NCBI GenBank assembly: GCA_951813855.1
Contig: OX638380.1
Coordinates: 1,442,876-1,506,875 of the forward strand
Direction: 5' to 3'
Origin: an uncultured Verrucomicrobiae bacterium
GTDB taxonomy: Bacteria; Verrucomicrobiota; Verrucomicrobiia; Limisphaerales; AAA164-E04
DNA length: 64,000 bases
In this document: positions 24,301 to 59,386 of the stretch, in pieces
Layout of the letters: each line of letters begins with the position of its first letter
How positions within the stretch are numbered: position 1 is the first letter of the stretch
The notes under the pieces: model-generated
The model's input: only the letters and a program-made list of their open reading frames with translations
The model's database searches: none
Told to the model about the DNA's origin: nothing
Made by a program: the position numbers and the translations under genes

Positions 24301-24303
24301 CTA

Positions 24304-24897: not shown

Positions 24898-24958
24898 ATT
24901 ACTATAGACACTTGTAATATCAAAATGTTACAATTAAATGATGTTTTTCAGTGGAACA

Positions 24959-26560: not shown

Positions 26561-26960
26561 TTATGAGTGCTTATCGCGACACCATTAACCCGAGACATTG
26601 CAATCCCGAAAAACCTGCTCCTCCAATCTCGCTTCAGTCCACGAACCGCTTCGCCGCAACGCCATGGCGAGTGCCCAGTCCCGAGGAAGCCCAGACGGAT
26701 CTCGATTATCAAGCTCACATTCACCGAAATGATTTGATCACAAACGCCTCTAGCCAATCAAATTACGCCAGAATGCTCAAGCCTTTTTTGAAACACGTCA
26801 ACGAGTCGCTCCGATGGGAAACCATCACCAGCTGCCGAATTCGAGACCAAGGAACAATCAACCACGTCCCCGTTCAATAGCAGACGCCGGTGATAACGGC
26901 CCCAACTGAGTCTGCCCCGTTCCGATTCCGCCGATCTGAATTACGTGGCGAACAGGATTC
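26561..26960 (+). repeat. Permease upstream region, duplicate A
   Basis: Matches 29499-29898 with scattered differences. It holds the region before the permease start. A 105-codon plus-strand open frame (26563-26880) exists but is neither conserved in length nor start in the other copy, so I do not call it a gene. Confidence 0.75.
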
Positions 26961-27517
26961 AAGCTCATCGAACAAGAAGCTGTCATCAGAGTCGCGTTCG
27001 ACGCTTGGATGATAATCACCGATTGGGAAAAAGGCGTATCGACGCCCCAAACAACCGGGTTGCGCTTTATCCGAATTCTCGACCATATCGATCATATTTA
27101 CCAGCTAGCCGGCAACGCTCGCCACGTAGGGATCGGCAGCGATCTGGATGGCGGATTCAGAGCCGACCAGTGCCCGACCGATCTAAACTACATCGAAAAA
27201 CTCTCCCGGCTGACATCCTTGCTAACGGGAAAAGGCTTCACTCAGGAAGAAACCAAGGGCATTCTAGCGAATAACTGGATCCGATTTCTGGATCGCACTT
27301 GGAGTTGAATCAAATCGATCGGCACCAGAGTCGACATTCCGGTCATCTGATATCGAATTAATCAATCGTAAAACTAAGTTCCTCCAGTAACATCGACCGA
27401 CTCCCCGACTATTGCGGAACGACTTGTGTCCGAGAGATCGTCGTGGTCTCCCGAAATCTGGCACGCCTCGTAATGGCAGGGAGTCGATATTATGCGATTT
27501 GCAGAATTCCCAAACTA
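26961..27517 (+). repeat. Tandem duplication unit 2, dipeptidase 3' end and tail
   Basis: Counterpart of about 20600-21161. It keeps the empty TA target (27516-27517) of the IS630 insertion, so the IS entered unit 1 only, after the duplication, or was lost from unit 2. Confidence 0.75.
26966..27308 (+). pseudogene. M19 dipeptidase, duplicated 3' fragment
   Basis: Partial second copy of the dipeptidase, starting in mid-gene (equivalent of IRLLVEREAVIGVVFDAW) and running to the normal end ILANNWIRFLDRTWS. It keeps VGIGSDLDGG but lacks all N-terminal metal ligands, so it cannot be active. It retains the ten C-terminal residues that the full-length gene has lost. The breakpoint, about 26961-26966, is the junction of the tandem duplication. 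Confidence 0.85.
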
Positions 27518-27841
27518 AACGAACCAAAGCGCAAAAAAACTCGAAATCAAAAAAGGTTTTAGGACATCCGGGCAGCACTCAAGAATACTGATTAATTAAA
27601 ATTTCGGATACAGAACAGCGGCTAAATAACATTCTGGTTAATTGACTCAATGGGTGACAAAACACAACCGGATCGGCCAAATCCTTACCGGCCTAAAACT
27701 GCGACCGTAAATACCGATGTCGGGGCAGCAAGATCCGACGGTAGTTTAACCGTGTCAATTTCATAATATAAAGTAACAGATTTAATCAAATAATGATTGC
27801 CATGTCATCAACTGGCAGCGAAACGATAACCAACAAGCAGA
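27518..27841. other. Spacer without a gene
   Basis: About 320 bases, partly A-rich, with no convincing open frame. It is the ancestral spacer between the dipeptidase tail and the permease, missing from unit 1 where the IS nest now ends. Confidence 0.5.
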
Positions 27842-29498
27842 TTAGCTTGTTGGTTTGTTTTCGAAAAACACCTTTAATTTATTTTTGCCACTCCACCATT
27901 GAGAGAAAAATAAAGTATTAAACATTCGCACATAAATCGATAATCGAAACCATAAATTATTTGTTTGAAAGTTAGAAATCCGTTCGAGAAAACCCTCAAC
28001 AACAAAAAAAACATAAAAACAGGCAGGAAGTAAAAAAAATGACAACATCATCCGACTGTGAACACTAACCCTGTTAATCGATCGAACACCTAAATAAACT
28101 CCATTAGTTCCAAGGCGCCTGAATTCAAAATAAGTCAAAGTACAGTGCACTAAATGCCCGAAGACCCCTAGCACGCCGAGTAACTTAAAATCCAAACTAA
28201 ACCTATGATGATCACTAAATAAAAAAAAAGGTGATTATTAATAGCCATTGAAAAATATGGGCGCCAACCAAGGTGTAGAACATACTAGTCCTCGACCGCT
28301 GCAGCGAAGTTTCGATTCCCTCCGTAAACTCCTTGTCGAAGTTCGGCACAGTCGCAATCAATTCAAACCAACCTGAATCTCGAAGATAGTGGCCTTGAGC
28401 CAATTCATCAAGATAGACATATATGCGGAATATCGCCTCCATCAAAAAAAGACCAAGATAACATAATAACATCCTATCGAATAATTCGATATTAGAAAAC
28501 GAAGCCACCAACGGGACCGCCGCCACGGAACTCAGATAGATCGCCGTCCCTATTAAAACTATCGTCGACCGGAGCAAGCTATTGGCCCAACGGTTCCAGA
28601 ATAAATAATAATAGGGATTGAACCGATCTTGAAATTTCAGGGAACGATGATTCGATGCGAAAAATCGTCGGTAAATGCTGTTCTGTGAACCTGACTGCGA
28701 TCGATTCGAATCCGTTTCCGATCTCCAATTAATCCTGAATATCATCCACGCCAGCAGGAATAAAACCGTCCCGATGCCGAAATTGCTGCCGACAATCCAG
28801 AGATAAGGCCATTTGAGTAATTCAACGACCGTCAGCAACTTGGCGGCAAGCAATTGATTTTCGAACGATTCGAGGAAGGCCGTCAAATAGGGGAAACTAT
28901 GCGAACAAAGCCAAAAACCTAGACGCGGCCCCAAGATGCATCCTCCCAAAGTAAGTAAACTCAGCAGCACCGAAAAGACCTTCTGGTGGCCGATGGTCGA
29001 ATAAAACAGTCCAACGGTTAAGGCTAGTACAACCATCGAGACGACGTTAACCAATTCCAGCACAACATCGGTCCACTCCAATCCGCCGCGCAACAGAGTC
29101 AGCGCGAAAATGGGCGCTACGGCAATCAAACAAAACAGAAAATGTGACGAGTTGGAGAATAATTTCCCCAATAACAATTCAGCCGGCTTCAAGGGAGTCA
29201 GCAGGAGAAGACCGAGCGTTCGGTTTCGTCGTTCCGAACTGACGGTATCGGCGGACAGAAGAACCGCGGTCAAACCGAAAAAAGTTACCGCCGTGTAAGT
29301 TAGCAATCTTAACGACATCGGTCCGGACAGCGAACTAATCTCCGATGACCAAAACCAAACTACGGCGATGCTTCCGACCAAGGCTAATCTCAAGGCATAT
29401 ATCTTCGGGTTCCGGCTGAAGACGAGGATTTCCCGGGATACGATCGCTGCAATATTCATACCGGTCAACCGAGAACCAAGGGGCGAAGGCCCTGACAT
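27842..29498 (-). pseudogene. ABC-2 permease, copy 2, frameshifted
   Basis: Near-identical to copy 1 for the first roughly 415 residues (28215-29498), including the SSERRNRTLGLLLLTPLKPAELL block. The frame is then lost at a run of nine T (nine A on the plus strand, about 28221-28229) and stops after ITFFFI. The C-terminal part continues in another frame at 27842-28195 (CTLTYFEFRRLGTNGVYLG...). The lesion is in a homopolymer, so slippage or a sequencing error is possible. Its C-terminal tail differs from copy 1. Confidence 0.8.
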
Positions 29499-43108: not shown

Positions 43109-45763
43109 ATGAGAAAGTCCATCGCTCACTGTTTCGCACTGATCGGCGTGGCAGTGCTGTTCGGTTGCGCGCATCCCCAACTGGATCCGGCGAACGTGCA
43201 AGTCGTCCCTCCGCCTCCACCTGCTCCCGTAAACCCGCTTGCTCCCGTAAACTCGGCAGGCCCCGTGGTACAAACCGAGACGGTCACTCCTCCGGTCGCC
43301 GACGGCCAAGAAGTTCCGATTGCCGAACCGGCGCCGGAAGAATTCCAAACCCCGATCGAGACAATCTCCTATTCGACCTCCCAAGTACTGAAAATGTACG
43401 AGTCGCAGGTCAGCAACGACGTTATTCTTGCCCAAATCAACAGTTCGAAAACGCCGTTCGAGTTATCGGCCGATAACATCATTTACTTAACCGATCTGGG
43501 GGTCCCCGCCGAAATCATCACCGCGATGATCAGCCAGGACGAACACCTCGGGGTCGCCGTAGCGCCGGCCGCCCCGCCGACCAACCAACAACATAATACC
43601 GTTCAAACGGCGAACGGACAACCCGGGCAACCGGCGGCCCAGAACGCTACTACGGCCAAACCGGTAGTCATTCAACGAGCTCCGGCGGTCACTACCGAAT
43701 TATTCTACGATTCCCTATCCCCTTACGGCTCGTGGATCCACACCGAAAGCTACGGCTGGACCTGGCAACCGACCGTCGCGAGCGTCAACGTTCACTGGCG
43801 CCCCTATTACGACCATGGCCATTGGCTTTACACCGACGCCGGTTGGTACTGGCAATCCGACTATTCCTGGGGCTGGGCCCCGTTTCATTACGGGCGCTGG
43901 GACCTGCACCGTTCGTATGGCTGGATTTGGGTTCCGGGAGAAGTTTGGGGGCCTTCTTGGGTTTCCTTCCGTTATACCGACTCGTATTGCGGCTGGGCTC
44001 CCCTGCCCCCCCGCTCCCGATTCGTTTCGGGGATAGGATTCACTTGGCAGGGATCGCGGATCAGCGCCGGGTTCGGATTCGGCTTGAGCCATCGTCACTA
44101 CGCTTTCGTCGATCGCAAACAATTCCATCGGCCGCACAACCAACGCCAACAAGTCGCTTCGAACCAAGTCCAGCAAGTGTTCAACAACTCGACAGTCGTC
44201 AACAATTACATCGTCGGCGACAACAACACGATCGTCAATCAGGGGATCTCTCGCGACGTTATTTCAAACGGCAATCCGACCAGCATTCGGAAAGTAGTCT
44301 TGCGGGACATTGGCGACTCCAAACAGATCGCCCGGCCTTCTTCCCGAAATCGCACGGAAGATGCCGTGCCGGTCTACCGTCCCCAAATCACCAAAACCAA
44401 GGCCGCTCCGGCCTCGACGATTTTGACTCGTCAAGCTTCGAGACCCAGCTACAACAGGTTCATTGCCCGCAACAGCGAGCTACAACGAACCGGCATTCCC
44501 CAAACGTCGCGAGGAAACGATAGCTCCAGTAGCAGAACCTTGACTCCCTCGCCTTCCAGAAGCCGACCCAGCCTAACCTCGACCTCGCCGCGACGTACTT
44601 CCCCTACGCCGGCCGTCCGACGCCCCGGCACGCCTTCGAGTTCCCGTTCGACTCCCACGAGAGCGAACTCCTCGAGTTCCCGGCGACCTAGCTCGCCTTC
44701 GGTTTCACGTCCGTCACCGTCTCGAAGCAGTGCGCTCAATCGGCCGTCGACTTCGACCCAGCGATCGTTGAATTCTTCGAATTCCCAGCGAACCAGTTCG
44801 CCTTCGGTCTCACGCACGTCGCCGTCCCGAAGCAGTGCGCTCAACCGGCCATCGACTTCGACCCAGCGGTCTTATAACCCATCGAATTCCCGGCGCCCCA
44901 GTTCGCTTTCGGTTTCACGTCCTTCACCGTCCCGAAGCAGTGCGCTCAACCGGCCATCGACCTCGAATCAGAGGTCTTATAACCCATCGAATTCCCGGCG
45001 CCCCAGTTCGCCTTCGGTTTCACGTCCTTCACCGTCCCGAAGCAGTGCGCTCAATCGGCCGTCGAGCTCGTCCCAGCGGTCGTTGAACTCCTCGAATTCC
45101 CGGCGGTCCAGTTCGCCTACGATCTCACGCCCGACTCCGTCCCGAAGCAGCACCCTCAACCGACCGTCGGCTTCGAATCAGCGGTCCTATAACCCGTCGA
45201 ATTCCCGGCGCCCCAGCTCGCCTTCGGTTTCGCGCCCCACTCCGCCCCGAAGCAGCACTCTCAACCGACCGTCGACCTCGAATCAACGATCCTATAACCC
45301 GTCGAATTCCCGGCGGCTCAGTTCGCCTTCGGTTTCGCGCCCCACTCCGCCCCGAAGCAGCACTCTCAACCGACCGTCGACCTCGAATCAACGATCCTAT
45401 AACCCGTCGAATTCCCGGCGGCCCGGCTCGCCTTCGGTTTCGCGCCCCACTCCGTCCCGAAGCAGCACCCTCAACCGACCGTCGACCTCAAATCAACGAT
45501 CCTATAACCCGTCAAATTCCCGGCGGTCCAGCTCGCCTTCGGTTTCGCGCCCGACTCCGTCCCGAAGCAGCGCCCTCAACCGGCCGTCGACCTCAACTCA
45601 GCGGTCGTTGAACTCCTCGAACTCCCGGCGGTCCAGTTCGCCTACGATCTCACGCCCGACTCCGTCCCGAAGCAGCACGCCTTCGGTTTCGCGCTCCACT
45701 CCGCCAAGCAGGAATTCATCCAATTCCGGGCCCTCGTCGAATTCGAGCACCTCCAATAAATAA
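43109..45763 (+). CDS. DUF6600-type lipoprotein with 35-residue Ser/Arg/Pro repeats
   Basis: 884 residues from ATG 43109. Lipoprotein signal with lipobox LFGCAHP (Cys near 19). A proline-rich linker and a conserved helical segment (ILAQINSSKTPFELSADNIIYLTDLGVPAEIITAMI, split by about residue 125) precede a Trp/Tyr/Gly-rich domain (about 195-345) of DUF6600 type (SPYGSWIHTESYGWTWQP, GHWLYTDAGWYWQSDY, GWAPLPP). Residues 525-840 are nine tandem 35-residue units plus one partial, rich in Ser, Pro and Arg (SVSRPTPSRSSTLNRPS). The tail is probably extended, basic and surface-exposed. Function unknown; a cell-surface or nucleic-acid-sticking role is only a guess. Confidence 0.82.
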   Translation: MRKSIAHCFALIGVAVLFGCAHPQLDPANVQVVPPPPPAPVNPLAPVNSAGPVVQTETVTPPVADGQEVPIAEPAPEEFQTPIETISYSTSQVLKMYESQVSNDVILAQINSSKTPFELSADNIIYLTDLGVPAEIITAMISQDEHLGVAVAPAAPPTNQQHNTVQTANGQPGQPAAQNATTAKPVVIQRAPAVTTELFYDSLSPYGSWIHTESYGWTWQPTVASVNVHWRPYYDHGHWLYTDAGWYWQSDYSWGWAPFHYGRWDLHRSYGWIWVPGEVWGPSWVSFRYTDSYCGWAPLPPRSRFVSGIGFTWQGSRISAGFGFGLSHRHYAFVDRKQFHRPHNQRQQVASNQVQQVFNNSTVVNNYIVGDNNTIVNQGISRDVISNGNPTSIRKVVLRDIGDSKQIARPSSRNRTEDAVPVYRPQITKTKAAPASTILTRQASRPSYNRFIARNSELQRTGIPQTSRGNDSSSSRTLTPSPSRSRPSLTSTSPRRTSPTPAVRRPGTPSSSRSTPTRANSSSSRRPSSPSVSRPSPSRSSALNRPSTSTQRSLNSSNSQRTSSPSVSRTSPSRSSALNRPSTSTQRSYNPSNSRRPSSLSVSRPSPSRSSALNRPSTSNQRSYNPSNSRRPSSPSVSRPSPSRSSALNRPSSSSQRSLNSSNSRRSSSPTISRPTPSRSSTLNRPSASNQRSYNPSNSRRPSSPSVSRPTPPRSSTLNRPSTSNQRSYNPSNSRRLSSPSVSRPTPPRSSTLNRPSTSNQRSYNPSNSRRPGSPSVSRPTPSRSSTLNRPSTSNQRSYNPSNSRRSSSPSVSRPTPSRSSALNRPSTSTQRSLNSSNSRRSSSPTISRPTPSRSSTPSVSRSTPPSRNSSNSGPSSNSSTSNK
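44681..45625 (+). repeat. Nine 105-bp tandem repeats in a coding region
   Basis: Units of exactly 105 bp (35 codons), in frame, with a tenth partial unit to about 45700. Units come in subtypes (ending YNPSNS or LNSSNS; PSPSRSSALN or PTPSRSSTLN) that recur in blocks, indicating recent duplication and exchange. Confidence 0.93.

Positions 45764-46950: not shown

Positions 46951-46952
<2 letters not shown>
46764..46952 (-). pseudogene. Possible C-terminal gene remnant abutting the tRNA
   Basis: The minus strand is open in one frame across the whole space between the secreted-protein gene and the tRNA. It reads KAGDKVKDYYALIYRGIK, then KRLEIDCESVTQGNFL and ends VVVSRL with TAA. It has no ATG, GTG or TTG start, and the composition looks protein-like rather than Arg-rich noise. 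It may be the 3' remainder of a gene truncated where the tRNA now sits. Family not recognised; it could also be chance. Confidence 0.3.
46916..46944 (+). promoter_or_regulatory. Promoter of the tRNA gene
   Basis: TTGACC (46916-46921), 17-base spacer, TATTTT (46939-46944), ending 6 bases before the mature tRNA 5' end. Confidence 0.6.
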
Positions 46953-47016
<64 letters not shown>

Positions 47017-47027
<11 letters not shown>

Positions 47028-47404
47028 AAAAAACCCCGTTATTTCATATGGATAACGGGATTTCTCTTTTCCAGATCCATGGCCCATTCATCAAACGTAA
47101 GCATACCGTAAGCGGCGGCGATGCACAGTGTGGCCTCGCTGTGACCCCGCATGGCCCTGTTGTGCTGTGAGTGTTCGGGGGCAGAATCGAGACGGTGCGC
47201 GGTCGCCGCATAAGCTTTCCTTCCGGCCGTGGAGCCCACCGCCCCGCCACCTCGTTCGACCCGCGAGAACGGCAAGTTTCTACGCTTTCCGGCCGTTTAG
47301 CACTGCCCGTGAGGCGAACCGGCACGGTTTGCTAGAACGGTTACGTCGTCGCAGGGAGCGCGATCCGGCGAATCAATGGCGGGTGGAAACCCCATAGTGG
47401 TCGC
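47017..47404 (+). repeat. Direct repeat, left copy (att-like, starts in tRNA 3' end)
   Basis: 388 bp matching 54238-54625 at a constant offset of 7221 with few substitutions. It begins CCCCGCATCCA inside the tRNA acceptor end. No integrase gene is recognisable in or between the copies. Confidence 0.9.
47032..47062 (+). terminator. tRNA terminator hairpin
   Basis: AACCCCGTTAT (47032-47042) pairs with ATAACGGGATT (47052-47062) with one mismatch, followed by TCTCTTTT. Confidence 0.8.
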
Positions 47405-47731
47405 GCCGCGCGGCGGGCCGCCCTGCAAATACGAGGCCAATCTGTTCGAGGGCCGCCGCCGGATCGATATCCGGCTGAGCTTCCATCGCTACGGCAAGGC
47501 GCTGCGCGTGAAAGGGCACAAGCTGCCCCGCAAGGCGACCGTGTGCCTGCTCCACGCCAAGCGCGTCACCGGCTTCCGCAACCGCCATTTCATGGAGGTG
47601 CCGAAGCTGCATCCGCTCAAGCTCTGGATCGTCCGGTTGAGAAGGCCGGCATCTGGCTGCCCGTCGAGATGGCGCTCAAGACGCGCTACGGCATCGCCCG
47701 CGCCCGGCTGTCGAAGCTGAAAATCCACTAG
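47405..47731 (+). pseudogene. DUF3108-like fragment, frameshifted
   Basis: One frame reads CKYEANLFEGRRRIDIRLSF, continues to PKLHPLKLWIV and breaks near 47635-47645. A second frame then continues EKAGIWLPVEMALKTRYGIA and ends KLKIH with TAG. A one-base deletion joins them. The combined sequence resembles the DUF3108 domain of secreted alphaproteobacterial proteins. The signal peptide and N-terminus are missing: similarity begins right at the repeat edge. Confidence 0.6.
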
Positions 47732-47748
47732 CCCGGATATTTCACGAA

Positions 47749-48216
47749 TTAGGTACCGCCGCGTCCGTCAACCCAGACCTCGACGTGGGCTCCAGACACC
47801 GCCTCGCGGGCGCGAACGAGATCGCGCATCGCCTCGTGGGCTTCGTCCGGCGTCCAGATCTCGGTCAGCTCGCCAGCCCGGAACAGATGGGCCAGCTTCA
47901 CGGCATCGCGGCGGTTCGTCTTCACCCGCTCACCGGGTCGGCGCGGAATCAGGGACGGCACGATGACGGCGCATTCGTGACCGAGCCCTTCGATCGACCG
48001 CTGCAGCCCGTAGCCCGTCGGCCCGGCTTGGTAGCAGAAGTGGAGCCGGCTGCCCGGCCGCTCCAGCTTGTGCACGAGACGACGCACGGAAGCGCTGTCC
48101 GAGCCGATTTCTCCATAATACCTCACCTCGCCATCGCGGCCGCCCTCCGCCACCGCCACGACATGGCGATCCTTCGACACGTCCATTCCGACAAAAATTT
48201 CGCTACAATCCACCAC
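47749..48216 (-). pseudogene. IS110-family transposase, 3'-truncated
   Basis: From GTG 48216 (AGGAGG at 48228-48233 lies upstream) the product begins EIFVGMDVSKDRHVVAVAE, the DEDD-type N-terminus of IS110 transposases, and continues through CYQAGPTGYGLQRSIEGLGHECAV to VKTNRRDAVKLAHLFRAGEL. It stops after about 155 residues, whereas IS110 enzymes have a further long C-terminal part with the second catalytic Ser region. Homology ends near AREAVSG, so it is a fragment. Confidence 0.85.
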
Positions 48217-48703
48217 GGTTCGCCCTCCTGGCTTGAGGCCCTGCTCGACGAGCAACCCTCGTTGAAAGCCGCCAGTGTAGGGCGAACTGCCCCGCCACAA
48301 GCCAGCCGCAGAACGACATACGGTCTTATCTTTGACCTGCTTGTTCGCGACACTGCTGGTCCACGGTCCAAGACGGTAGACCGCTCACCACCGGTCCGGC
48401 TTCGCCGCGGCCGCCTCCGCGTCCACCTGGGCGCGCGAGAGCCGGAACTTCCGCGTGATCACCGCCGACCTTGGCCGGGGCTGCCCGAAAGCGTCCCCTT
48501 CCCGGTCCGGCTGCAGGCCCAGCCGACCTGGCGGCGCTGGAGTAGGGCCTGCTGGCCTGAAAGGTCCCCCGGGACGCCGGCCGGGGCGTGCTCTTCTGGG
48601 CGGCTGCTGGACAGTATGGTTTTGGTGTCCTCGCCGACGGTGAGCCGCACGTACTCGTAGTCAACCCGTGTAATCGAATTCCAACTATTGCAACTGTACA
48701 GTA
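48217..48703. other. Stretch without an assignable gene
   Basis: High-GC DNA up to about 48660 with short frames on both strands, none recognised; the first part is probably the IS110 leader. The last 40 bases are A/T-richer and run to the target duplication of the ISAs1 element. Confidence 0.45.
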
Positions 48704-48712
48704 CGCGAAAGT

Positions 48713-50888
48713 CAGGACTTTTTCATGCTAATAATTTTTGATCGACGATCGTTTTTTTCAGTGTCGAGCGGAGTATTTCGATTCGTCGGAAAAACTGTTT
48801 TTCCGAATTATGCTTCGAGTTAGGCGGCGATTGCCGATTGAGACGAGTTTCAGCCGGACAGGAGACTAAACCGGTGCGAGTATCGGTCAAACGATCAATT
48901 CGCCGACCGAATCAGCAAGGAGGAAGCGTCGATAATCAGGAAGGTCGGGTCAGTTTTTTTTCGGACGTTTTTTCGGACGTTTAAACGGGGTGGTTTTCAT
49001 GACGGCTCGCAACCCTTGGTTCCGATTCGTCTGAAAATCGTCAGTAGCTTCGGCCATATTAGAGTATCCCGACTGGAGAATGATCGCCAAGGCCAGGTTG
49101 TTGCAGAGGGCATTGTTCGTCGGCCCATGGCGAGTTCGCATGAGACAATCATCTTCGCCGAAAATCCCGTCGCGACGGCGGTGATTGCCGTTTTCTACCG
49201 TCCCATGTCCCCGATTGAGTGACAACAATCGTTGAGCGTCGGCAGCTTCCGGAGGCAACGAAGTGACGCCGTAAACATATTCCACGGTCTCGGGCCCACC
49301 GTTCCAATGATGACGGTGTCGAATGATCCGAAAGACTTGGAGGACATGCGGTAATTTGACGGCTCCGGGAAGGGGTTCATAGGTTTGAATGCTCCGTTGA
49401 TCGATGCGGCCATGTCCTTTCTCCGGTTTTTCGGTGAACCGGTCCTGGGCCACTCGATCCCAATCCAGGCTGGTCAAAAATTGAGAGAGTTCGGGGTTAT
49501 TCTCTTTAACCGTGAAGAGAAAATGGGCTCTGTTAACCAACACGATGGCATCGGCCATGACTCGGTTAGTATGGAGCGCATCGATCGTAATGATGGCTCC
49601 TCGGATATCGACATCCTCCAAGAGAGCCGCCATCGCCGCCTGTTCGCCGCCTTGGTCTCGGCAACTGCGAACGGCGATGGGCACCGCATCTTGATGGCGC
49701 ACGAGGATGACGGTCTCGAAATGGTCTTTGCTGTTGCGATTAGCTCCGTTGATCCGCTTCCCGTCAGCAGCCAAGGCTTCCAGGGGTTGTCGAGTCAATT
49801 GGGCCGTTACCCAGCGGTGAGTTACCGTTTGCAACGCTTCCGGATCCGTCTCGGTCATGACCCGGTGAATCGTCGCGAGAGACGGGGCTACGTAACGGTC
49901 CTTGGCGTTGCGCCACGCCCCGAGAGTCTGCAATTGGTTTGGCGTCATTTTTTGGGCGTAACGCGAAGTCGCCAAGGGGCCGACCTTGCCGGCCAATCGA
50001 GCTAAGATGCAGCTAGCGAGGACCATTTCCAGCCGATGTTTGCGTCCTTGGGCTCGGCGAAAATCAGCCATTTCCGCGAGCAGTTGCACCAATGATTTCA
50101 ACTGTTTCGGGGACGTTTCTACCCGTTGCACCTGGGGGCCCCAAGACGGATCGTCCTTACGGTCCCTTAATCGGGAACCGGCTTGGGGACGCAAGGGATA
50201 AAGGTACATTTCCTTCTTTATATGGTGCCGGGCGGTATAGCGTCCGTTGCTGCGAGCGTAGCCTTGCGATTGCCCTGCCGCCCGCCAATTCCCCGAGCGA
50301 TAGATCGTGCCCGCGAAGTGTCGGGGATCGACGAAAGTTCCGGCCAATTCCAACGGATGACCCCAGGTCCGTTGCCAATCGGCACTCAGCCGGCGCAGCA
50401 TTTTGGCCATGACGCAACTCCCCAGATTGCGCACTTCGCCCCGCTCGGTAAGCAGGAGGAATCGGGTATTGTTGGCAATCAAATGCAGCCGACGAAACTG
50501 CTCTCGTTTTTTCCACCCGAGCCACTTGTCTCGCGGGCGACACTGGAACACTCCGCTTTGCCAGCCGGCTAACGCCAACCACCGGCCTCGGTACTCGGCA
50601 ACATAACGCAGCCCGCGTCCGGCAAAGCCTTTGAAACCCAAGCAATGGTTCTGATCCATCAGCGAATCCCAGCGTCTTCGCTCACTGCTCTTCACCAATC
50701 GAACAGTCACCAGCTTGAGGTTGATTTTGGCGTCCCTGAGGAACCAATAACGACCGGAGAATGAAAAAGCCAGCTTTATTTTCTCATTTTGAAGACGCTG
50801 AAGTTTCGGCTCTCTGGTGAAGGGAAAAAGCGAATATGGCTCGAAATCGGTGACACGGGCCACTAGCGATTAGCGTGAAAAAACCCTG
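48713..50888 (-). mobile_element. Complete ISAs1-type element encoding a DruA-transposase fusion
   Basis: 2176 bp. Left end CAGGACTTTTTCATGCTAAT (48713 onward) is an imperfect inverted repeat (about 17 of 22) of the right end (complement of bases up to 50888, CAGGGTTTTTTCACGCTAAT). A 9-bp target duplication CGCGAAAGT lies at 48704-48712 and 50889-50897. About 237 bases of non-coding DNA, with a 21-base palindrome, separate the left end from the transposase stop. Confidence 0.88.
48950..50863 (-). CDS. ISAs1-family transposase with N-terminal DruA-like (DUF4338) domain
   Basis: 637 residues from GTG 50863. Residues about 50-250 resemble the DUF4338 domain named after the Druantia anti-phage protein DruA: QNHCLGFKGFAGRGLRYVAEYRGRWLALAGW, WLGWKKREQFRRLHLIANNTRFL, FVDPRHFAGTIYRSGNW. 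Residues about 260-620 form an ISAs1-type DDE transposase (LEALAADGKRINGANRN, IITIDALHTNRVMADAIV, NRGHGTVENGNHRRRDGIFGEDDC). Gene families with this fusion exist, so the domain here probably serves transposition. All catalytic motifs appear intact and the element has a clean target duplication, so it may be active. The C-terminus is Lys/Arg/Pro-rich. Confidence 0.85.
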   Translation of the reverse strand: MARVTDFEPYSLFPFTREPKLQRLQNEKIKLAFSFSGRYWFLRDAKINLKLVTVRLVKSSERRRWDSLMDQNHCLGFKGFAGRGLRYVAEYRGRWLALAGWQSGVFQCRPRDKWLGWKKREQFRRLHLIANNTRFLLLTERGEVRNLGSCVMAKMLRRLSADWQRTWGHPLELAGTFVDPRHFAGTIYRSGNWRAAGQSQGYARSNGRYTARHHIKKEMYLYPLRPQAGSRLRDRKDDPSWGPQVQRVETSPKQLKSLVQLLAEMADFRRAQGRKHRLEMVLASCILARLAGKVGPLATSRYAQKMTPNQLQTLGAWRNAKDRYVAPSLATIHRVMTETDPEALQTVTHRWVTAQLTRQPLEALAADGKRINGANRNSKDHFETVILVRHQDAVPIAVRSCRDQGGEQAAMAALLEDVDIRGAIITIDALHTNRVMADAIVLVNRAHFLFTVKENNPELSQFLTSLDWDRVAQDRFTEKPEKGHGRIDQRSIQTYEPLPGAVKLPHVLQVFRIIRHRHHWNGGPETVEYVYGVTSLPPEAADAQRLLSLNRGHGTVENGNHRRRDGIFGEDDCLMRTRHGPTNNALCNNLALAIILQSGYSNMAEATDDFQTNRNQGLRAVMKTTPFKRPKKRPKKN

Positions 50889-50906
50889 CGCGAAAGTCTG
50901 ATTGCC

Positions 50907-50965
50907 TTGACAATGTGTAGTGAGTTTCCTACTTTCTCGATTTGAAAAAGCGAAAAAGTAGGAAA
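50907..50965 (+). promoter_or_regulatory. Promoter with palindromic operator before the HipA-like gene
   Basis: A near-perfect promoter: TTGACA (50907-50912), 17-base spacer, TACTTT (50930-50935). An inverted repeat, TTTCCTACTTTCTCG (50925-50939) and CGAAAAAGTAGGAAA (50951-50965), one mismatch in 15, covers the -10 on one arm and the Shine-Dalgarno AGG plus the A of the start codon on the other. Binding there would block both transcription and translation, as in autoregulated toxin-antitoxin operons. RNA hairpin formation is an alternative. Confidence 0.6.
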
Positions 50966-51011
50966 TGCTGCACCTCGTCGGCGAGACCATCGACAAGCAC
51001 CGCGCCCAATA
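50965..51011 (+). pseudogene. 5' end of the HipA-like gene, cut by IS630
   Basis: ATG 50965 starts MLHLVGETIDKHRAQ; the next codon is split by the IS630 insertion. Removing the IS and one TA joins this to 52168 in frame (…RAQ-Y-G-M-E-T-G…), giving one 599-residue protein. Confidence 0.8.
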
Positions 51012-52165
51012 TCAATCATTGCAAAAGTAATGTCATGTAATTATATATCGAGTATCATCCAATTTAAAGTATGATTGGACCATTCCCATTTTCTTTTGGA
51101 TGGATTGCATAATGTTTTGAATTTTCTGTTGCATCGTCTTTTTGTTGGGTATCATTATTTTAGCTAATCTTTGCTTTAAATGGTTCCAAACCTGCTCATC
51201 GGGATTTAATTCAGGGCTGTAGGGAGGAAGATATTTCATTTCAATACTATCGTTTTCGGCTACGAACTCTTGGGTATAATCTGCTGTATGATAGCTGGCG
51301 TTATCACAAACAACAATTATTTTCCGTCCCACATCCTTAGAGAGTTTCGATAAAAACTCACAAAAACGCTGGGCATTCATTTTTCCTTTGAAAATGTTAA
51401 ATATCAATTGCCCGTCAGCGGATATGGCTGAAACTAGTTTAATCGAATAGCGATCCCCGGCATCTCGAACTACCGGCGTGACACCGATTCGAGACCAAGT
51501 GGTTCCTCGATGATAATCAGCTCGGACTGACGCTTCATCCAAAAAGAGAATTAGGGCATTCTCTTGCTCAGCTCGTTGTTTCAAGCCTGGAAACATCTCC
51601 AGATACCGTTTGATTTTCTTCTGGTTTTGTTTGTAAGACTTGTGGATGGGGCGCTGGGGAGTTAATCCCATAGAATGAAGCAATCGACTGATGGTGGAAA
51701 CGTGAACCGACACCCCGAATTGTTGTTTCAATAACACTTGCATGGTTTTGAGACTCCACAGGCAAAAGTCGAATTGAAATTGCTTGGGATTTCCCATAGT
51801 CACCGCGTTGTATAACCATTGAGCCATTTCTTCTGTAATCTTACGGGGACGTCCTGATTTAGGATTGTCTTTGAGTCCTTCGTAACTCCCAGTCGAAAAC
51901 CAAACGAGCCAGCGAAATACTGTGCGTGCAGACATACCCATTACACTGACAACTTCAGCTACGGTTGAGCCATTTTTTTAACAGCTTCTACCGCAGTTGT
52001 TCGTAGTTCATAGGTATAGTGATTACGAGAAGATTGAGTTGGTTTATCGTTCACGTCTTTATAGACATTCTCAATACAAAAAACGTTGCAAAAAAAATAA
52101 ATATTTTTCATTTTTCGGATTAATAAATTACTGATCAATTATGACATTACTTTTGCAAAGATTGA
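51012..52165 (-). mobile_element. IS630-type element (intact ends) in the HipA-like gene
   Basis: 1154 bp, ends TCAATCATTGCAAAAGTAATG (51012 onward) and the inverted TCAATCTTTGCAAAAGTAATG (to 52165). TA on both sides (51010-51011, 52166-52167) is the target duplication. Confidence 0.92.
51033..51941 (-). CDS. IS630-family transposase
   Basis: 302 residues from ATG 51941, containing the helix-turn-helix end (MGMSARTVFRWLVWFS), ISRLLHSMGLTPQRP, the catalytic LILFLDEASVRADYHRGTTW, VVCDNASYHTADY and YLPPYSPELNPDEQVWNHLKQ. Relative to the copy starting at GTG 22001, about 35 N-terminal codons are out of frame because a run of five A there is seven A here (51973-51979 in plus-strand T). Either the first part is lost, or slippage on the A-run joins the two frames, as some IS elements do. 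Confidence 0.87.
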   Translation of the reverse strand: MGMSARTVFRWLVWFSTGSYEGLKDNPKSGRPRKITEEMAQWLYNAVTMGNPKQFQFDFCLWSLKTMQVLLKQQFGVSVHVSTISRLLHSMGLTPQRPIHKSYKQNQKKIKRYLEMFPGLKQRAEQENALILFLDEASVRADYHRGTTWSRIGVTPVVRDAGDRYSIKLVSAISADGQLIFNIFKGKMNAQRFCEFLSKLSKDVGRKIIVVCDNASYHTADYTQEFVAENDSIEMKYLPPYSPELNPDEQVWNHLKQRLAKIMIPNKKTMQQKIQNIMQSIQKKMGMVQSYFKLDDTRYIIT

Positions 52166-52171
52166 TATGGC

Positions 52172-53920
52172 ATGGAGACCGGCAGGCTTGTCCAGATCAT
52201 GCGGGGCATCTATATCGCATCGGAGGATGACGCCGACGCTGTCCTGTTCGATCACGCGCTCCGGATCGCCGCCTATCTATACCCGAGGACGTATCTTTGC
52301 GGCCCCAGCGCCGAGCGGCTCACGCCTACGCCTGACAGGCACCTGTTCCTGAGCGGCCGGCGCAATGCACGCACACGGCTGCGCACCCTGGAAATCGTGC
52401 AGACGCGCGCGCCCGACGCGCCCGAAACGGAGACCGCTCAAACTACCGACCCAATGAGTGACCTGAGGGTCCGGCGCTCGACGCTTCGCTTTCGGTATCT
52501 GGAATCCTTCCGGCGGCGCAGCGAAGCCGGCGCGGAGATGCCGATCGACATGCAGGCCGATATCGCCGCGCGGCTCGTCTGGAACGCCGGCGGCAAGAAG
52601 ACGGCGATCATGGAGTGCTGGCGACTGGCCGAGGCCAACGGATGGCGGGCGGAGGCGGGGCGCGCGGAAGCGTTCATCGCCACGCCGCTTCGAGAGGCGC
52701 CGCCGCGGGGGAAAGCGCTTCATGTCGGATGGCACGGCGAGAAGATCGGGGTGTTGTCTCATGACGGATCGGGCTGGCGCTGGGAGCAAACCGCGACAGA
52801 AGACGCGACGCCGGTTCGGACCGGGGCGCCGGGCCGCCTGCCGCCCTTCATCGAGAGCTTGCTGCCGGAAGGCTGGCTTGAACGCGTCCTGAAGCCGAAG
52901 TCGGAGCTGGAGCTGATATCCAGCGGGAAGCGCTACATGTCCAACATTGTCATCTCCGAGGACGCGGACGATCTTCGCACTCTTCCCGCGGATATGCTGG
53001 AGGGACGCCTCGAAGCGTACACGAAGGAGGGCGCATTCGCCGGCGGCTACGCCGGGCCCGCGCCTGTATTCGACGAGACGTTGGAAGACCGCATGTCCGC
53101 GCTGTTTGCATCGGACGAGACGCCGCGACTGTCGAGGGTTCAGATCAAAGCGCCGATGAACCTTTCCCATGCCGGCGTGTTGCGGCCGGCCGGAGAGCTG
53201 GCCTTCACGCATATCCTCAAGCCTTCGCCGGGAGCCGGCTTCGAAGACCTTCCTCTCGTCGAAGCGGCATGTCTGGCGGCGGCCCGGGCCTGCGGGTTCG
53301 AGACGGTTGCGCACGCAATGATCTCGATGCCTGGCAACCTCCCCGACGCGCTGCTCGTCGAACGCTTCGATATCCGGCGAGACCGCAATGACCGTCGAAA
53401 AGTCGCAATGGAAGACATGGCGTCCGTTCGCGATGCCGCGCCTTCCGAAAAATACGAGGGTTCCATTGAGCAGGCCGCCCGGGCGCTACGGAGCGTCTCC
53501 AGCGACACCGAAGCGGATGTCGCGGTGCTGCTTGGCCGTGCCGTGCTCGCCTGGCTCATAGCGGATGGCGTTTGCCACTTGAAGAATTTGGCCGTTCTGC
53601 GTGTTGCCTCCGACGGAGCGGAGAATTTCACATCCGTCCGGCTCGCTCCGATCTACGATGCCGTGACGACACGGGTCCTTCCGGGCCTCGAGAGCGATCA
53701 CCTCGCCCTCTCGCTGGCGGGCAAGCGGAATCGTTTGTCGTCCCGCGACTTTGTCCGGGCGGGCGTGACAATGGGCATGAATGCGGGGGAGGCTCGCGAT
53801 ATCGTCGCGTCTCTGTGTGGCTGTCTGAGCGCGCACCTTGAAGACGTTGAACCTGCCTCCGACCGCGTTAATCAAGCAGTCGAGATCTGGAAGGAGAGAA
53901 TCGAGACCACTGCCGATTGA
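52172..53920 (+). CDS. HipA-family kinase-like protein with AbiEi-like N-terminus, separated from its promoter by IS630
   Basis: 582 residues from ATG 52172 (codon 18 of the original gene that starts at 50965). Residues 1-75 resemble the winged-helix region of AbiEi-type antitoxins (RLVQIMRGIYIASEDDADAVLFDHALRIAAYLYP). The rest is HipA-like: HVGWHGEKIGVLSHD, the small central domain (SGKRYMSNIVISEDADDLRTLP), FTHILKPSPGAGFEDLPLVEAACLA, ALLVERFDI and RLAPIYDAVTT. HipA kinases phosphorylate glutamyl-tRNA synthetase or other targets. The usual catalytic loop GDxHxKN is GVCHLKN, so the Asp is Val 467; kinase activity is doubtful. GC-rich codon use suggests an alphaproteobacterial source. Confidence 0.8.
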   Translation: METGRLVQIMRGIYIASEDDADAVLFDHALRIAAYLYPRTYLCGPSAERLTPTPDRHLFLSGRRNARTRLRTLEIVQTRAPDAPETETAQTTDPMSDLRVRRSTLRFRYLESFRRRSEAGAEMPIDMQADIAARLVWNAGGKKTAIMECWRLAEANGWRAEAGRAEAFIATPLREAPPRGKALHVGWHGEKIGVLSHDGSGWRWEQTATEDATPVRTGAPGRLPPFIESLLPEGWLERVLKPKSELELISSGKRYMSNIVISEDADDLRTLPADMLEGRLEAYTKEGAFAGGYAGPAPVFDETLEDRMSALFASDETPRLSRVQIKAPMNLSHAGVLRPAGELAFTHILKPSPGAGFEDLPLVEAACLAAARACGFETVAHAMISMPGNLPDALLVERFDIRRDRNDRRKVAMEDMASVRDAAPSEKYEGSIEQAARALRSVSSDTEADVAVLLGRAVLAWLIADGVCHLKNLAVLRVASDGAENFTSVRLAPIYDAVTTRVLPGLESDHLALSLAGKRNRLSSRDFVRAGVTMGMNAGEARDIVASLCGCLSAHLEDVEPASDRVNQAVEIWKERIETTAD

Positions 53921-54237
53921 CGAGCGCGGCGAAGCGAGGTTTCTGCTTTGCACTTGGCGGCCGAAGGTTCTGGAGATCGTCAGGAACGATGCGGCGTGCG
54001 GGTCGACCGACGACTGACGACGCCGGGTATCGGCCCGGTCAGCGCTCTCAGCCAGAACCCGGCTTGGTCGATTCCCTGGCAGTGTGTTAGAGGTTTTCTG
54101 GGAGGCGTACTGACGCGGAAGTCGGTTGCCGTTGACAACTACCATGGCTCAGTGATGCGGATTCCCAAGGTAGATCAGTAAGTTAAGACGGCTCAGACCG
54201 GAATTTCGATCAAATGTCGGTCTCGGTGATTGCGAGC
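53921..54237. other. Stretch without a gene
   Basis: About 320 bases between the HipA-like gene and the second direct repeat; no recognisable coding, though the left part keeps the island's GC-rich character. Confidence 0.4.
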
Positions 54238-54625
54238 CCCCGCATCCAAAAAAACCCCGTTATTTCATATGGATAACGGGGTTTCTCTTTTCCAGATCCA
54301 TGGCCCATTCATCAAACGTAAGCATACCGTAAGCGACGGCGATGCACAGTGTGGCCTCGCTGTGACCCCGCATGGCCCTGTTGTGCCTTGAGTGTTCGGG
54401 GGCAGAATCGAGACGGTGCACGGTCGCCGCATAAGCTTTCCTTCCGGCCGTGGAGCCCACCGCCCCGCCACCTCGTTCGGCCCGCGAGAACGGCAAGTTT
54501 CTACGCTTTCCGGCCGTTCAGCACTGCTCGTGAGGCGGACCGGCACGGTTTGCTGGAACGGTTACGTCGTCGCAGGGAGCGCGATCCGGCGAATCAATGG
54601 CGGGTGGAAACCCCATAGTGGTCGC
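54238..54625 (+). repeat. Direct repeat, right copy (with partial tRNA 3' end)
   Basis: 388 bp matching 47017-47404. It starts with the 11-base tRNA tail CCCCGCATCCA and includes the terminator hairpin. Similarity ends after GTGGTCGC. Confidence 0.9.
54253..54283 (+). terminator. Second copy of the tRNA terminator hairpin
   Basis: AACCCCGTTAT (54253-54263) and ATAACGGGGTT (54273-54283), perfect here, followed by TCTCTTTT. Confidence 0.75.
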
Positions 54626-54811
54626 CGTGCGGCGGCTCCGCTTGTGAGAAGTGGATCAGGCGTGCGATGACCAGTGCTGGCCGTTACGTGAAGATTCGTG
54701 ACACGGAGGACGGGAAGTGATGTAATCAACGGGAGTAAGGCCCCTGTTTCGATTGCACCGGTTCAGTTCCAGGGCTTGGGAGCTTGGCACAGGAAAGTCA
54801 GAGGTATCCAC

Positions 54812-55231
54812 ATGCAGTTTGTGGGGAAAGGTCCAGATGTTCCCGAGCGCCTGTTGCGAGCGCACGAAGAAGGCCGTGTCGTCTTTTTCTGTGGCGCTGG
54901 AATCTCCTGTCCTGCTCGCTTGCCAGAATTTACCGAGCTGGTGGATAAACTCTATTCCGGCCTAGAGGTCATTCCGGATCCGGTGCAAGCCGCAGCCATC
55001 AAATCCAAGCGCTATGACACGGCCGTGGGTTTGCTCGAGGCGAATTTCGTCGGTGGACGTCAATCCGTGCGCCGGAAGATCGCAGAGATAATCGATCCGG
55101 ATATTTCTGCCCCCAATGCGACTGCCACGCACGACGCGTTACTGACTCTAGCGAAATGTCGCAAGCGTCGCACTCGACTGATCACGACGAACTACGACCG
55201 GCTGTTCGAGCATGTAATCGCGAACGGTTGA
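54812..55231 (+). CDS. SIR2 N-terminal part of a Dsr1-like anti-phage protein (ends at in-frame TGA)
   Basis: From ATG 54812 (GAGG at 54801-54804 gives good spacing) the product is 139 residues: QFVGKGPDVPERLLRAHEEGR, then the NAD-binding SIR2 motif VFFCGAGIS and the LITTNYDRLFE motif. The frame stops at TGA 55229-55231 and continues in the same frame as the next entry. Together they match one long SIR2-DUF4020 protein. Family proteins as I recall them read through this place without interruption. A 38-codon extension upstream to 54698 is less likely because it lacks family features. Alone, this peptide lacks the SIR2 His. Confidence 0.8.
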   Translation: MQFVGKGPDVPERLLRAHEEGRVVFFCGAGISCPARLPEFTELVDKLYSGLEVIPDPVQAAAIKSKRYDTAVGLLEANFVGGRQSVRRKIAEIIDPDISAPNATATHDALLTLAKCRKRRTRLITTNYDRLFEHVIANG

Positions 55232-55237
55232 CTTTCT

Positions 55238-58200
55238 GTGGAACGATTCGAAGCCCCGTTGCTACCCGTCCCCAAGCAACGCTGGGATGGATTGGTGTAC
55301 CTCCACGGCCTGATACCCGAGAACCCGTCCGAAAAGAGCCTCGACAATCTGGTCGTCTCGAGCGGCGACTTCGGTCTTGCCTACCTCACGGAGCGTTGGG
55401 CAGCGCGCTTCGTCAGCGAACTGCTTCGGAACTTCGTCGTTTGCTTTGTCGGCTACAGCATCGATGATCCCGTTTTACGCTACATGATGGACGCCTTGGC
55501 GGCGGATCGTCTGCTCGGCGAATCGCCGCCCGAAATGTTTGCGTTCGGAAGCTTTTCCAAGCGCAAAAAGGAGACCCGGGGCAATGAATGGCGCGCCAAG
55601 AATGTCACGCCCATTCTTTATCGGGAATTTCGTCATCACGCCTACCTGCATAACACCCTCCGTGCTTGGGCCGACACCTACCGGGACGGCGTACGTGGAA
55701 AGGAACGGATCGTCGTCGAGTACGCCATGGCGCGGCCGGGCACGGCCACGAGTCAGGATGACTTTGTCAGCCGCATGTTGTGGGCCCTGAGCGATCCAAC
55801 GGGTCTTCCCGCCATGCGGTTCGCGGACCTAAATCCGGTGCCTGCCCTCGATTGGCTCGAACCCTTGGGTAAGGATCGATTCGGACACGCCGACCTAATC
55901 CGCTTCGGCGTTCCGCCCAAGACGGGTGGGGACGAGAAACTCGCGTTCAGCCTGATTCGTAAACCCGCACCGTACAACTTGGCTCCGCAGATGACACTCG
56001 CGAATTGGAGTGTGCAGGATGGCCGCCTCGACGAGGTGATGCGACACTTGACTAGGTGGCTGATGCGTCATCTCAACGACCCCGAGCTGCTACTCTGGCT
56101 GGTAAAGCAAGAAGTGGAGCTGCAAGCACATCTTGCGGACCAGATAGCCTATCGTCTGGACGAACTGGCCCGGCTCGAGCAGCGTGAAGAGCACGAGGCA
56201 TTGGACCTCATCCGCAAGCATTCGCCTGACGCGATTCCTCACGAGCGGATGCGCACGCTTTGGGGCCTCTTGTTAGCCAATCGGGTGAAGAAGCTCGGAT
56301 CGGACCTCGAGCTTCTTCGATGGCGGGGCCGCTTCGCGAAAAGCGGCCTGACAACCACCATGCGGTTGGAGTTGCGCGACTTGCTCAGCCCTCGCGTGTC
56401 ATTGCGGGCGCCCTTCCGAAGGCCGTTCGAAAAGAATGAGGTTGAGGTTGAGGAAGAAACAGGAGGCATTCGGCAGCTCGTGGACTGGGAAATCGTTCTC
56501 TCGGCAAACCACGTACATGGAGAGCTACAAAACTTGGCGGGTGACCAGAACTGGGTTTCCACGCTGCCGACGCTACTCACTGAATTCACCGGATTGCTTC
56601 GCGATGCGCTGGATCTCATGCGCGAGCTTGGCGGGGCAAAGGACAAGAGCGATTTGTCATACGTGAGCCAACCATCGATCAGTGAGCACGCTCAGAATTC
56701 GTCTTTCCGAGATTGGACCGCCTTGATTGACCTGAACCGCGACGCTTGGAGGGCCGCAGCTGCCGTGTCGCCAAACCAGGCACGACTCATGGCGGAAGCC
56801 TGGTCACAATTGCCCTACCCTCTGTTCCGTCGCCTGGCGTTTTTTGCCGCCTCGCCGCACGGCATCGTTCCTCGAAGTCAGGGACTCGGGTGGCTGCTGG
56901 CCGAGAACAATTGGTGGCTTTGGTCGGCGGAAACGAAGCGAGAGACCATGCGACTGCTGGTCGCCTTTGGGCCGCAACTCGATCAAGACGGATTGTCCAG
57001 GCTTGGGCGGGCCATACTCGCCGGACCGCCACGCGACATGTTCAGGCCCGACATCGATGAGGAGCGCTGGACACGGATACAGGAGAGCGAGGTCTGGTTG
57101 CGACTGGCCAAGATCAGCTACGCTGGGGCACAACTGAATACCGCCGCCCAGGGCCGGCTGTACGAGATTTCGGCCAAGCATCCGGGGTGGCGGCTGGCCG
57201 CGGATGAACGTGATGAGTTTTCGATCTGGATGTGTGATCCCGGTGAGTTGCTTGTCCACGTCACGGTGCCGCGTGGTCGAGACGAACTTGTAGAATGGCT
57301 CCGCGAGAATCCCGAACCCGATCATTGGCGTCCCGATGACTGGCAAGAGCGCTGCCGAGTTGACTTTGGTGATGCCGCATCGGCTCTGGCTGCATTGGCG
57401 ACAGAAGGCACATGGCCGACGGCGCGGTGGCACGAAGCGCTTTATCAGTGGTCAGACGATGAACAGCGAGAGCATTGCTGGCGCGAATTAGCCCCGATTC
57501 TGGTCAAAGTGCCGACGGAGACCTTGCGTGAGCTTTCCCACGGAGTGAGCTGGTGGTTGGGGAAACTCGCGAAGACCTTTGAGGGCCAAGAGGCGATTTT
57601 TCTCGCGCTGTGCGATCGCGTGCTGGCGCTCGACTACGAGGATGAAGAGGAGAACGACGATCCCGTTGGGCGTGCGATCAACCATCCTGTGGGACATGTG
57701 ACGAAAGCGCTGCTTCACCGGTGGCACCGAAGCGACCTTAAGTACCAACAAGGTCTGGCTGACGAAGCGAGGCACGTGTTTACCCAGCTCTGCGACACGG
57801 GGATTCCGAAGTTCCGGCATGGCCGCGTGTTGCTGGCAACCCACGTGATCTCGTTGTTCAGAGTGGATCGCGAGTGGACGAGCCGGTCCGTGCTTCCACT
57901 GTTTGATTGGAAAACCTCTGAGGTGGAAGCACGCTCGGCATGGGAAGGGTTCCTTTGGTCGACGAGACTCTATCCGCCTTTAATGGAGTTGCTCAAGCCG
58001 GCGTTCCTGGATACGGCAAACCACTACAATCAGATTGGCCGACACCGCGAACGGTACGCGTCGTTAGTAACGTTCGCAGGGTTAGACCTAGGAGATATCT
58101 TTGAAAAGCGCGAATTAGCGCTCGCCATGCAAGCGTTGCCCCAGGACGCACTCGACACTGCGGCTTATACATTCGCCCGCGCAGTCGACAGTGTCGGCGA

Positions 58201-58609
58201 TCAAAGAGCCGACTACTGGAAGAACAAGGCGGCGCCCTACCTGAAGGCGATTTGGCCAAACACGCCCGATGCCATTTCGGAATCGGGCTCGGAGAGCTTT
58301 GCCAAAGCGTGCATTGCGGCGGGGGACGCATTTCCCGAGGCATTGGCACAAGTCTCGTGTTGGCTGCGGCCGCTCAGGCACCCGGATCGAATCGCGCATT
58401 CGGTTCATAAAGCGCAATTGGATGCGCGGATACCGGAGTCAGCACTGGAGCTTCTGAACCGAATCGTGGGTGACGCGGCTCAGGGATACTTCCGCGATCT
58501 GGCAAGGTGCCTAAGTGCCGTACGGGCCGTGCAGCCAGACCTCGAACACGACCATCGCTTTCAGAGACTGCTGGAGATCGTGCGGGCGAATGGCGGGGAT
58601 ATCGACTGA
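55238..58609 (+). CDS. SIR2/DUF4020 C-terminal part of a Dsr1-like anti-phage protein
   Basis: 1123 residues from GTG 55238, in the same frame as the SIR2 start at 54812 and separated by one TGA and two sense codons. Residues 1-80 complete the SIR2 domain: VERFEAPLLPVPKQRWDGLVYLHG (catalytic His-Gly), FGLAYLTERWAARFVSEL and FVGYSIDDPVLRYMMDAL. The remaining about 1000 residues are an alpha-helical DUF4020-type region with no stop or frameshift. Defence-associated sirtuins of this layout deplete NAD+ after phage sensing and abort infection. Without the N-terminal GAGIS and NYD motifs the fragment cannot bind NAD+, so defence probably requires readthrough or the locus is a recent pseudogene. 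Confidence 0.8.
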   Translation: MERFEAPLLPVPKQRWDGLVYLHGLIPENPSEKSLDNLVVSSGDFGLAYLTERWAARFVSELLRNFVVCFVGYSIDDPVLRYMMDALAADRLLGESPPEMFAFGSFSKRKKETRGNEWRAKNVTPILYREFRHHAYLHNTLRAWADTYRDGVRGKERIVVEYAMARPGTATSQDDFVSRMLWALSDPTGLPAMRFADLNPVPALDWLEPLGKDRFGHADLIRFGVPPKTGGDEKLAFSLIRKPAPYNLAPQMTLANWSVQDGRLDEVMRHLTRWLMRHLNDPELLLWLVKQEVELQAHLADQIAYRLDELARLEQREEHEALDLIRKHSPDAIPHERMRTLWGLLLANRVKKLGSDLELLRWRGRFAKSGLTTTMRLELRDLLSPRVSLRAPFRRPFEKNEVEVEEETGGIRQLVDWEIVLSANHVHGELQNLAGDQNWVSTLPTLLTEFTGLLRDALDLMRELGGAKDKSDLSYVSQPSISEHAQNSSFRDWTALIDLNRDAWRAAAAVSPNQARLMAEAWSQLPYPLFRRLAFFAASPHGIVPRSQGLGWLLAENNWWLWSAETKRETMRLLVAFGPQLDQDGLSRLGRAILAGPPRDMFRPDIDEERWTRIQESEVWLRLAKISYAGAQLNTAAQGRLYEISAKHPGWRLAADERDEFSIWMCDPGELLVHVTVPRGRDELVEWLRENPEPDHWRPDDWQERCRVDFGDAASALAALATEGTWPTARWHEALYQWSDDEQREHCWRELAPILVKVPTETLRELSHGVSWWLGKLAKTFEGQEAIFLALCDRVLALDYEDEEENDDPVGRAINHPVGHVTKALLHRWHRSDLKYQQGLADEARHVFTQLCDTGIPKFRHGRVLLATHVISLFRVDREWTSRSVLPLFDWKTSEVEARSAWEGFLWSTRLYPPLMELLKPAFLDTANHYNQIGRHRERYASLVTFAGLDLGDIFEKRELALAMQALPQDALDTAAYTFARAVDSVGDQRADYWKNKAAPYLKAIWPNTPDAISESGSESFAKACIAAGDAFPEALAQVSCWLRPLRHPDRIAHSVHKAQLDARIPESALELLNRIVGDAAQGYFRDLARCLSAVRAVQPDLEHDHRFQRLLEIVRANGGDID

Positions 58610-59386
58610 AGGGATTCCGCGTTGCGGTGTTGTTTCCCGGATTATTTTGGTGATAATCGGTCGTTTCGTCCCACGCTTTCTTATCGTGTTCGTTCGTTAT
58701 TTGGTGCGCCTCAACTCTTTGATAGCGTGAATCAAGGAACTTTTTTCCAAGCAGTTTGATTGCAAGTAGCGTTATTGTCCTTGGACCGGCGTTATCATAT
58801 CGGCGATGTCGGCGTAGAGAAATGGAATAATCAAGTGTCCCCGTCCTTGAAACCCTGACCTATCGTCGCCACCTCAGACCGGTTATCGACCACCGCCTTA
58901 CCAACTAAGTCCTCCTCCTGTTGCATCCAAAAATAATCCGGGATAAAAATAATCCGGGATATTTGGTTTAAACGGATTTGAAATACAACACTTGGCGCCA
59001 GAAACGGCCGTGCGGTTTTTCCGGATCGGGGAGAAAGAGCTTCTGTAGCGCAGGCTTTTCCCTGCCTTCAACACCCCAATTGGGCAAATACTTCTGCCAT
59101 GCTGCCCGTAACGAACACCTGTTCCGCTACCGGTCGAATTCCCGGAATTCGTCGTCCGATCGCTGAGAATCTAATTGACTCCCGCCCGTTTCGACGAACA
59201 TCCTGCCTTCATTCAAACGATTCTTAGCTCGCACCGGTTCGTCTCCCTAATTTCCCCGGCGAAGGGCAACAGACGAAGCCGCAGTCCCCGAGACTTTCGA
59301 TCGCACACGTCAAAAACCCCAGGTGGCGATATGTCTCTCGGAATCGCATCCCCCCATCCCCGCTAATACCGGCCCGGAACCGCTCG
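58610..59386. other. Intergenic stretch
   Basis: About 780 bases with no convincing gene. It holds a short direct repeat (AAAAATAATCCGGGA, twice near 58928-58960) and the string GCATCCAAAAA (58923 onward), which also occurs at the tRNA 3' end. Confidence 0.4.

Follow-up and report, generated by a model that had tools for sequence, protein, structure and literature searches.

DSR2, for which structures have been solved, is a NADase that is activated by the phage tail tube. Its activity requires the residues N133 and H171 (PMC10981675; PMC10973363), and its C-terminus is reported to have little in common with that of DSR1 (PMC10973363). KomC and ThsA are two further SIR2 NADases, which belong to separate systems with partner proteins and lack a comparable long C-terminal region. 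Dsr1 is represented by the family models NF041818 of NCBIfam, with an equivalog cut-off of 1,400 bits, and PDLC02183 of PADLOC.

In the window, i.e. the whole stretch of 64,000 nucleotides that was analysed, the frame at 54812-58609 is one more copy of this known anti-phage gene, which leaves the knowledge of Dsr1 unchanged. We consider it probable that this is a horizontally acquired dsr1, carried as the cargo of an island, which a single C-to-T transition turned into a young pseudogene by creating a TGA. The features of the gene are the following:

54618..54811, + strand: upstream stretch common to relatives, with homology from 54732 in L002, 54618 in L003 and 54714 in L004
54798..54811, + strand: Shine-Dalgarno region (AGAGGT) with the spacer to the real start, -7.1 kcal/mol
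54812..58609, + strand: dsr1 frame of 1,265 codons and a terminal stop, interrupted by one internal TGA (ORF reading, Dsr1 profile matches)
54812..55231, + strand: N-terminal fragment of 139 aa, with GAGIS (nucleotide-binding) and TTNYD (N127), catalytic His absent
55229..55231, + strand: in-frame TGA at residue 140, where a hypervariable loop starts after the predicted helix 131-139
55238..58609, + strand: downstream open frame of 1,123 codons, opening at a GTG 6 nt past the stop

Family assignment and SIR2 domain

The ORF reading of the window gives a single frame from the ATG at 54812 to the terminal TGA at 58607-58609, in agreement with the preliminary description, according to which the SIR2 start and the long frame that follows are parted only by the TGA at 55229-55231, and the remainder carries no further lesion (one internal stop across 1,265 codons). 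The family call made there is confirmed by end-to-end profile matches of the conceptual full protein, which scores 1,778 bits against NF041818 (model 1-1263, matched over 1,258 of 1,265 residues) and 1,519 bits against PDLC02183 (residues 1-1259). The two halves of the frame match neighbouring stretches of one Dsr1 model, 1-135 and 145-1272, and the join is therefore real and not due to chance. The sole Pfam match, both here and in two E. coli Dsr1 proteins, is SIR2_2, found at E=1e-22 in the N-terminal region of the read-through protein; DUF4020 gave no match at E=10 in any of the three, and this model is possibly missing from the Pfam copy used.

The window gene resembles other Dsr1 members (NF041818, PDLC02183) in its near full-length match, its length, its single-gene layout and the retention of the SIR2 active-site residues, and the copies of its relatives are also found on mobile islands. 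It differs from them by the stop at residue 140, by NYD in place of NFD (the middle position is F in 74 of 75 distant relatives), and by a raised rate of change on its branch. Since the TGA at residue 140 breaks what is otherwise a single coding frame in Dsr1, we file the locus as an inactivated member of the family and not as a working one.

The structure of residues 1-300 was predicted from an alignment of 42 sequences (pLDDT 84, pTM 0.85), and structure comparison suggests that the SIR2 domain shares its fold with the structures of DSR2, KomC and ThsA. KomC is the top PDB sequence match of the window protein (E=5e-6). The predicted domain has a TM-score of about 0.7 to the DSR2 structures 8wyc, 8w56 and 8k9a, with about 17% sequence identity and an equivalent Asn/His catalytic pair; this comparison covers the SIR2 domain. 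The pair consists of N127 and H165, the equivalents of DSR2 N133 and H171, which are invariant across the 42 sequences and both present in the window protein. Residue 140 is predicted to lie directly after helix 131-139, in a loop ahead of strand 145-147, and its column varies very strongly among 75 distant relatives, with Gly, Ser, Lys, Ala and others.

The stop had been placed between the GAGIS/NYD motifs and the catalytic YLHG, and this position holds: N127 (in TTNYD) lies upstream of residue 140 and H165 (in YLHG) downstream of it. The downstream frame contains YLHG, the remaining SIR2 domain and the C-terminal region. As the stop separates N127 from H165, each fragment lacks part of the active site.

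The tRNA-fMet island and the relatives of dsr1

The gene lies in a region organised around an initiator tRNA-Met gene, with these elements:

46951..47027, + strand: initiator tRNA-Met gene, island attachment site, the only tRNA in the window
47017..47416, + strand: repeat copy 1, 400 nt, opening within the last 11 nt of the tRNA
54238..54635, + strand: repeat copy 2, 97% identical to copy 1, upstream edge of the dsr1 element
58923..58933, + strand: candidate third attachment core GCATCCAAAAA, exact over 11 nt and in the same orientation, a short and tentative downstream edge

The cargo is thus flanked by a repeat of the tRNA 3' end (400 nt, 97%), which has only two copies in the whole genome, and tentatively by the 11-nt core downstream. 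This arrangement points to two tandem elements anchored in tRNA-fMet, one at 47017-54237 and another, carrying dsr1, from 54238 to about 58922, where the downstream edge is tentative. The first of them contains a DruA-domain transposase, an IS630-type element and a HipA-like gene. No integrase gene was found in either element, by Pfam on the scanned ORFs or by tblastn with the integrase of the relative L004. At the candidate downstream core there is also a perfect 16-nt tandem repeat, AAAAATAATCCGGGAT (58929-58960), part of which recurs in inverted form at 58630-58648.

Similar pieces are found beside the dsr1 of two relatives. In L003, 44 nt of the 400-nt repeat sit 250 nt upstream of the gene, and in L004 a 45-nt piece of tRNA-fMet lies 1.5 kb downstream of it, with a tyrosine integrase gene in between. 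These associations suggest that this dsr1 clade has repeatedly travelled on tRNA-fMet islands. The mobile-island setting proposed in the preliminary description is therefore supported, by the repeat and by its counterparts in relatives; the gene does lie beside a copy of the tRNA-anchored repeat (about 175 bp upstream), whereas the tRNA gene itself is 7.8 kb away. The stretch 54618..54811, judged by its homology in relatives, likely represents a promoter and leader that move together with dsr1. In congeners the empty site could not be placed, as the flanking genes were too divergent or absent.

The host genome has no dsr1 other than that of the window, and the gene is lacking in 57 related genomes, three of them congeners. 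Its nearest relative, in an Albidovulum MAG (L002, MPMP01000065.1), shares 87% protein and 92.5% DNA identity; at the DNA level the two are homologous over the gene and some 80 nt ahead of it, and in L002 the frame is intact and the flanks are different. Carriage of dsr1 by a phage was rejected, as a search of a phage collection gave no match and IMG/VR yielded only distant relatives, at 41-53% on 17 contigs.

Other observations concern the contents of the window. The 637-aa protein at 48950-50863 (- strand) joins a Druantia DruA domain (PF14236) to DDE_Tnp_1-associated and DDE_Tnp_1 transposase domains. The IS630-type element (51009-52168) has 28-bp inverted repeats and ends 4 bp ahead of the HipA-like kinase gene (52172-53920, 582 aa), whose original start or partner may be lost. 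A 105-nt direct repeat array of nine or more copies (44561-45700) lies within the gene for a 901-aa DUF6600 protein, and about 8 kb at 20001-28000 have 43-44% GC, against roughly 60% in the surroundings, and are likely a foreign segment.

Age of the stop and selection on the frame

A genome scan yielded 80 relatives, and the site of residue 140 is free of stops in every one of them. In the three nearest, at 87, 77 and 74% identity, the codon there is for arginine and lies one transition from TGA, and across 65 nt around the site the stop position is the sole difference between the window and L002. Other lesions occur in 3 of the 80 (L081 with a single stop, L047 with two, of which one is close to the end, and L028 with a frameshift near residue 1118). 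In E. coli, one dsr1 type has its full length in 14 of 14 copies, and the 60 records listed for the other type include one interrupted by an IS element, two truncated at the 3' end and one that matches in part. Taken together, these counts indicate that roughly 1 in 20 dsr1 copies (about 5%) is broken.

Four outgroups served to polarise the changes that arose after the split from L002, and dN/dS was corrected for the mutation spectrum. The corrected value is 1.19 on the window branch (95% interval 0.83-1.77), compared with 0.56 (0.38-0.86) for the sister L002 and 0.21-0.33 for four other tips. A purpose-written maximum-likelihood codon model gives 0.77 for the window branch, 0.59 for L002 and 0.17 for the background, the window branch being indistinguishable from 1 and one value for both tips fitting as well as two; the raw N:S contrast between these tips has P=0.065. 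In columns that are at least 90% conserved, 13 changes are observed on the window branch against 25.9 expected under neutrality, i.e. half the neutral rate, and 4 against 32.6 in L002, an excess in the window with P=0.007.

On the window branch there is a single stop, where about 7.7 would be expected if the whole branch were neutral (P=0.004), and there are no frameshifts. This depletion of stops and the half-neutral rate of conserved columns indicate that the relaxation was at most partial. A raised dN/dS and an excess of conserved-column changes, yet one stop instead of 7.7, argue that the frame was selected during most of the branch and lost late. A rough mixture estimate from the conserved-column ratios, with a wide error, suggests that the unconstrained share of the branch may reach about 40%; such a share predicts about 3.3 stops, with which the one observed is compatible (P=0.16). 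Of the four readings that had been offered for the stop (very recent, suppressed, phase-variable or an error), a recent origin is the best supported, although the mild relaxation signal means that the loss need not be extremely recent.

Since the L002 split, the coding strand on this branch has acquired 55 G>A against 17 C>T changes (54812-58606, P=4e-5). GC skew on the + strand is negative almost throughout the window, whereas it is near zero to slightly positive in the island and slightly positive in the dsr1 segment (+0.03, +0.01), and the simplest reading of the G>A excess is that the DNA of a newcomer is drifting to the negative skew of its surroundings. Such a drift to the local strand bias would support a recent acquisition of dsr1, and hypermutation was rejected as the less simple source of the excess. 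The change that created the TGA is itself a C>T.

Alternative readings and consequences for Dsr1

A sequencing or assembly error, the true genome having an intact and working dsr1, is unlikely, but survives best among the alternatives. It would account for a lone substitution in an otherwise clean frame of 1,265 codons and for the strong depletion of nonsense and frameshift changes on the window branch, and the genome is a single contig for which the read type is not given. A wrong base call in a still-working, fast-evolving gene would also fit the partial relaxation, and dN/dS is raised in L002 too, where the frame is intact. However, consensus assemblies contain fewer substitution errors than indels, the stop site lacks a homopolymer, and an error does not predict the conserved-column excess (13 vs 4).

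Quite unlikely, in our view, is a leaky functional gene, in which near-cognate reading of the TGA by tRNA-Trp at a few percent would supply low-level Dsr1 and could limit NADase toxicity. The frame downstream of the TGA is intact, and Trp would probably be tolerated in the hypervariable loop at residue 140. The base after the stop is C, a weak termination context. Against this reading, the stop is private to the window genome, no dedicated suppressor tRNA was found, and constraint on the window branch is reduced and not kept. In E. coli, TGA is the leakiest stop and is read mostly as Trp, while a T in the next position promotes termination and a G promotes read-through (PMC11126739); the T-rich CTTTCT that directly follows the TGA here favours termination on this basis. 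Traces of full-length Dsr1 made by read-through are plausible, and nothing shows that they have functional weight. We regard as very unlikely that the TGA serves as a translational brake, with few-percent read-through or a self-assembling split SIR2 domain; if true, a costly NADase would be held at a safe level with phage defence retained.

A Dsr1 made of two polypeptides, with a restart at GTG 55238 and fragments assembling into a split SIR2 domain, is highly improbable. This GTG is in frame 6 nt past the stop, and the break would fall in the predicted loop between helix 131-139 and strand 145-147, but Shine-Dalgarno pairing there (-2.4 kcal/mol) is no better than the random median (-2.7), in L002 the identical GTG is simply a Val codon, and the natural split at this site that would have undercut the preliminary description was found in none of the 80 relatives, and was thus rejected.

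Programmed decoding or switching, by selenocysteine insertion or a phase-variable on/off state, deserves next to no credence. The host genome encodes a tRNA-Sec, yet residue 140 is Arg, Gly, Ser, Lys or Ala in relatives and not Cys, so that selenocysteine was discarded; phase variation has no substrate, since the site has no homopolymer, repeat or invertible element and the nearest relative differs by a base substitution. Suppression by a dedicated mechanism likewise finds no support: ARAGORN read all 47 host tRNA genes (46 tRNA-model matches and tRNA-Sec), none of which besides tRNA-Sec has a TCA anticodon, which speaks against a suppressor tRNA, and TGA is an ordinary stop here, terminating 8 of 9 genes checked nearby, which also argues against general TGA recoding. 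The tRNA-Sec lies at 1497-1593 of L087, and the host may make selenoproteins.

The evidence is best for an ordinary loss of a defence gene and not for a new gene control. In the acquired and then inactivated dsr1 that we favour, a small element carrying the gene would have integrated at the 3' end of the initiator tRNA-Met gene, and a single C-to-T transition would then have produced the TGA inside the SIR2 domain. By analogy with DSR2, the C-terminal region of an intact Dsr1 would sense a phage component and turn on the N-terminal SIR2 NADase, so that NAD+ is depleted and the infection aborted. In the window allele, translation would end after 139 codons, leaving fragments with the N127 half and the H165 half; as the active site is divided between them, neither should hydrolyse NAD+ alone. 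Most likely, phage defence is lost in this allele, and the loss may have been tolerated through missing pressure from the matching phage or because of the cost of the NADase. The locus would then be a case of a mobile abortive-infection gene lost after its arrival, whose frame was maintained through most of its history until one stop arose late, and it warns that such loci should neither be counted as active defence nor dropped as annotation noise.
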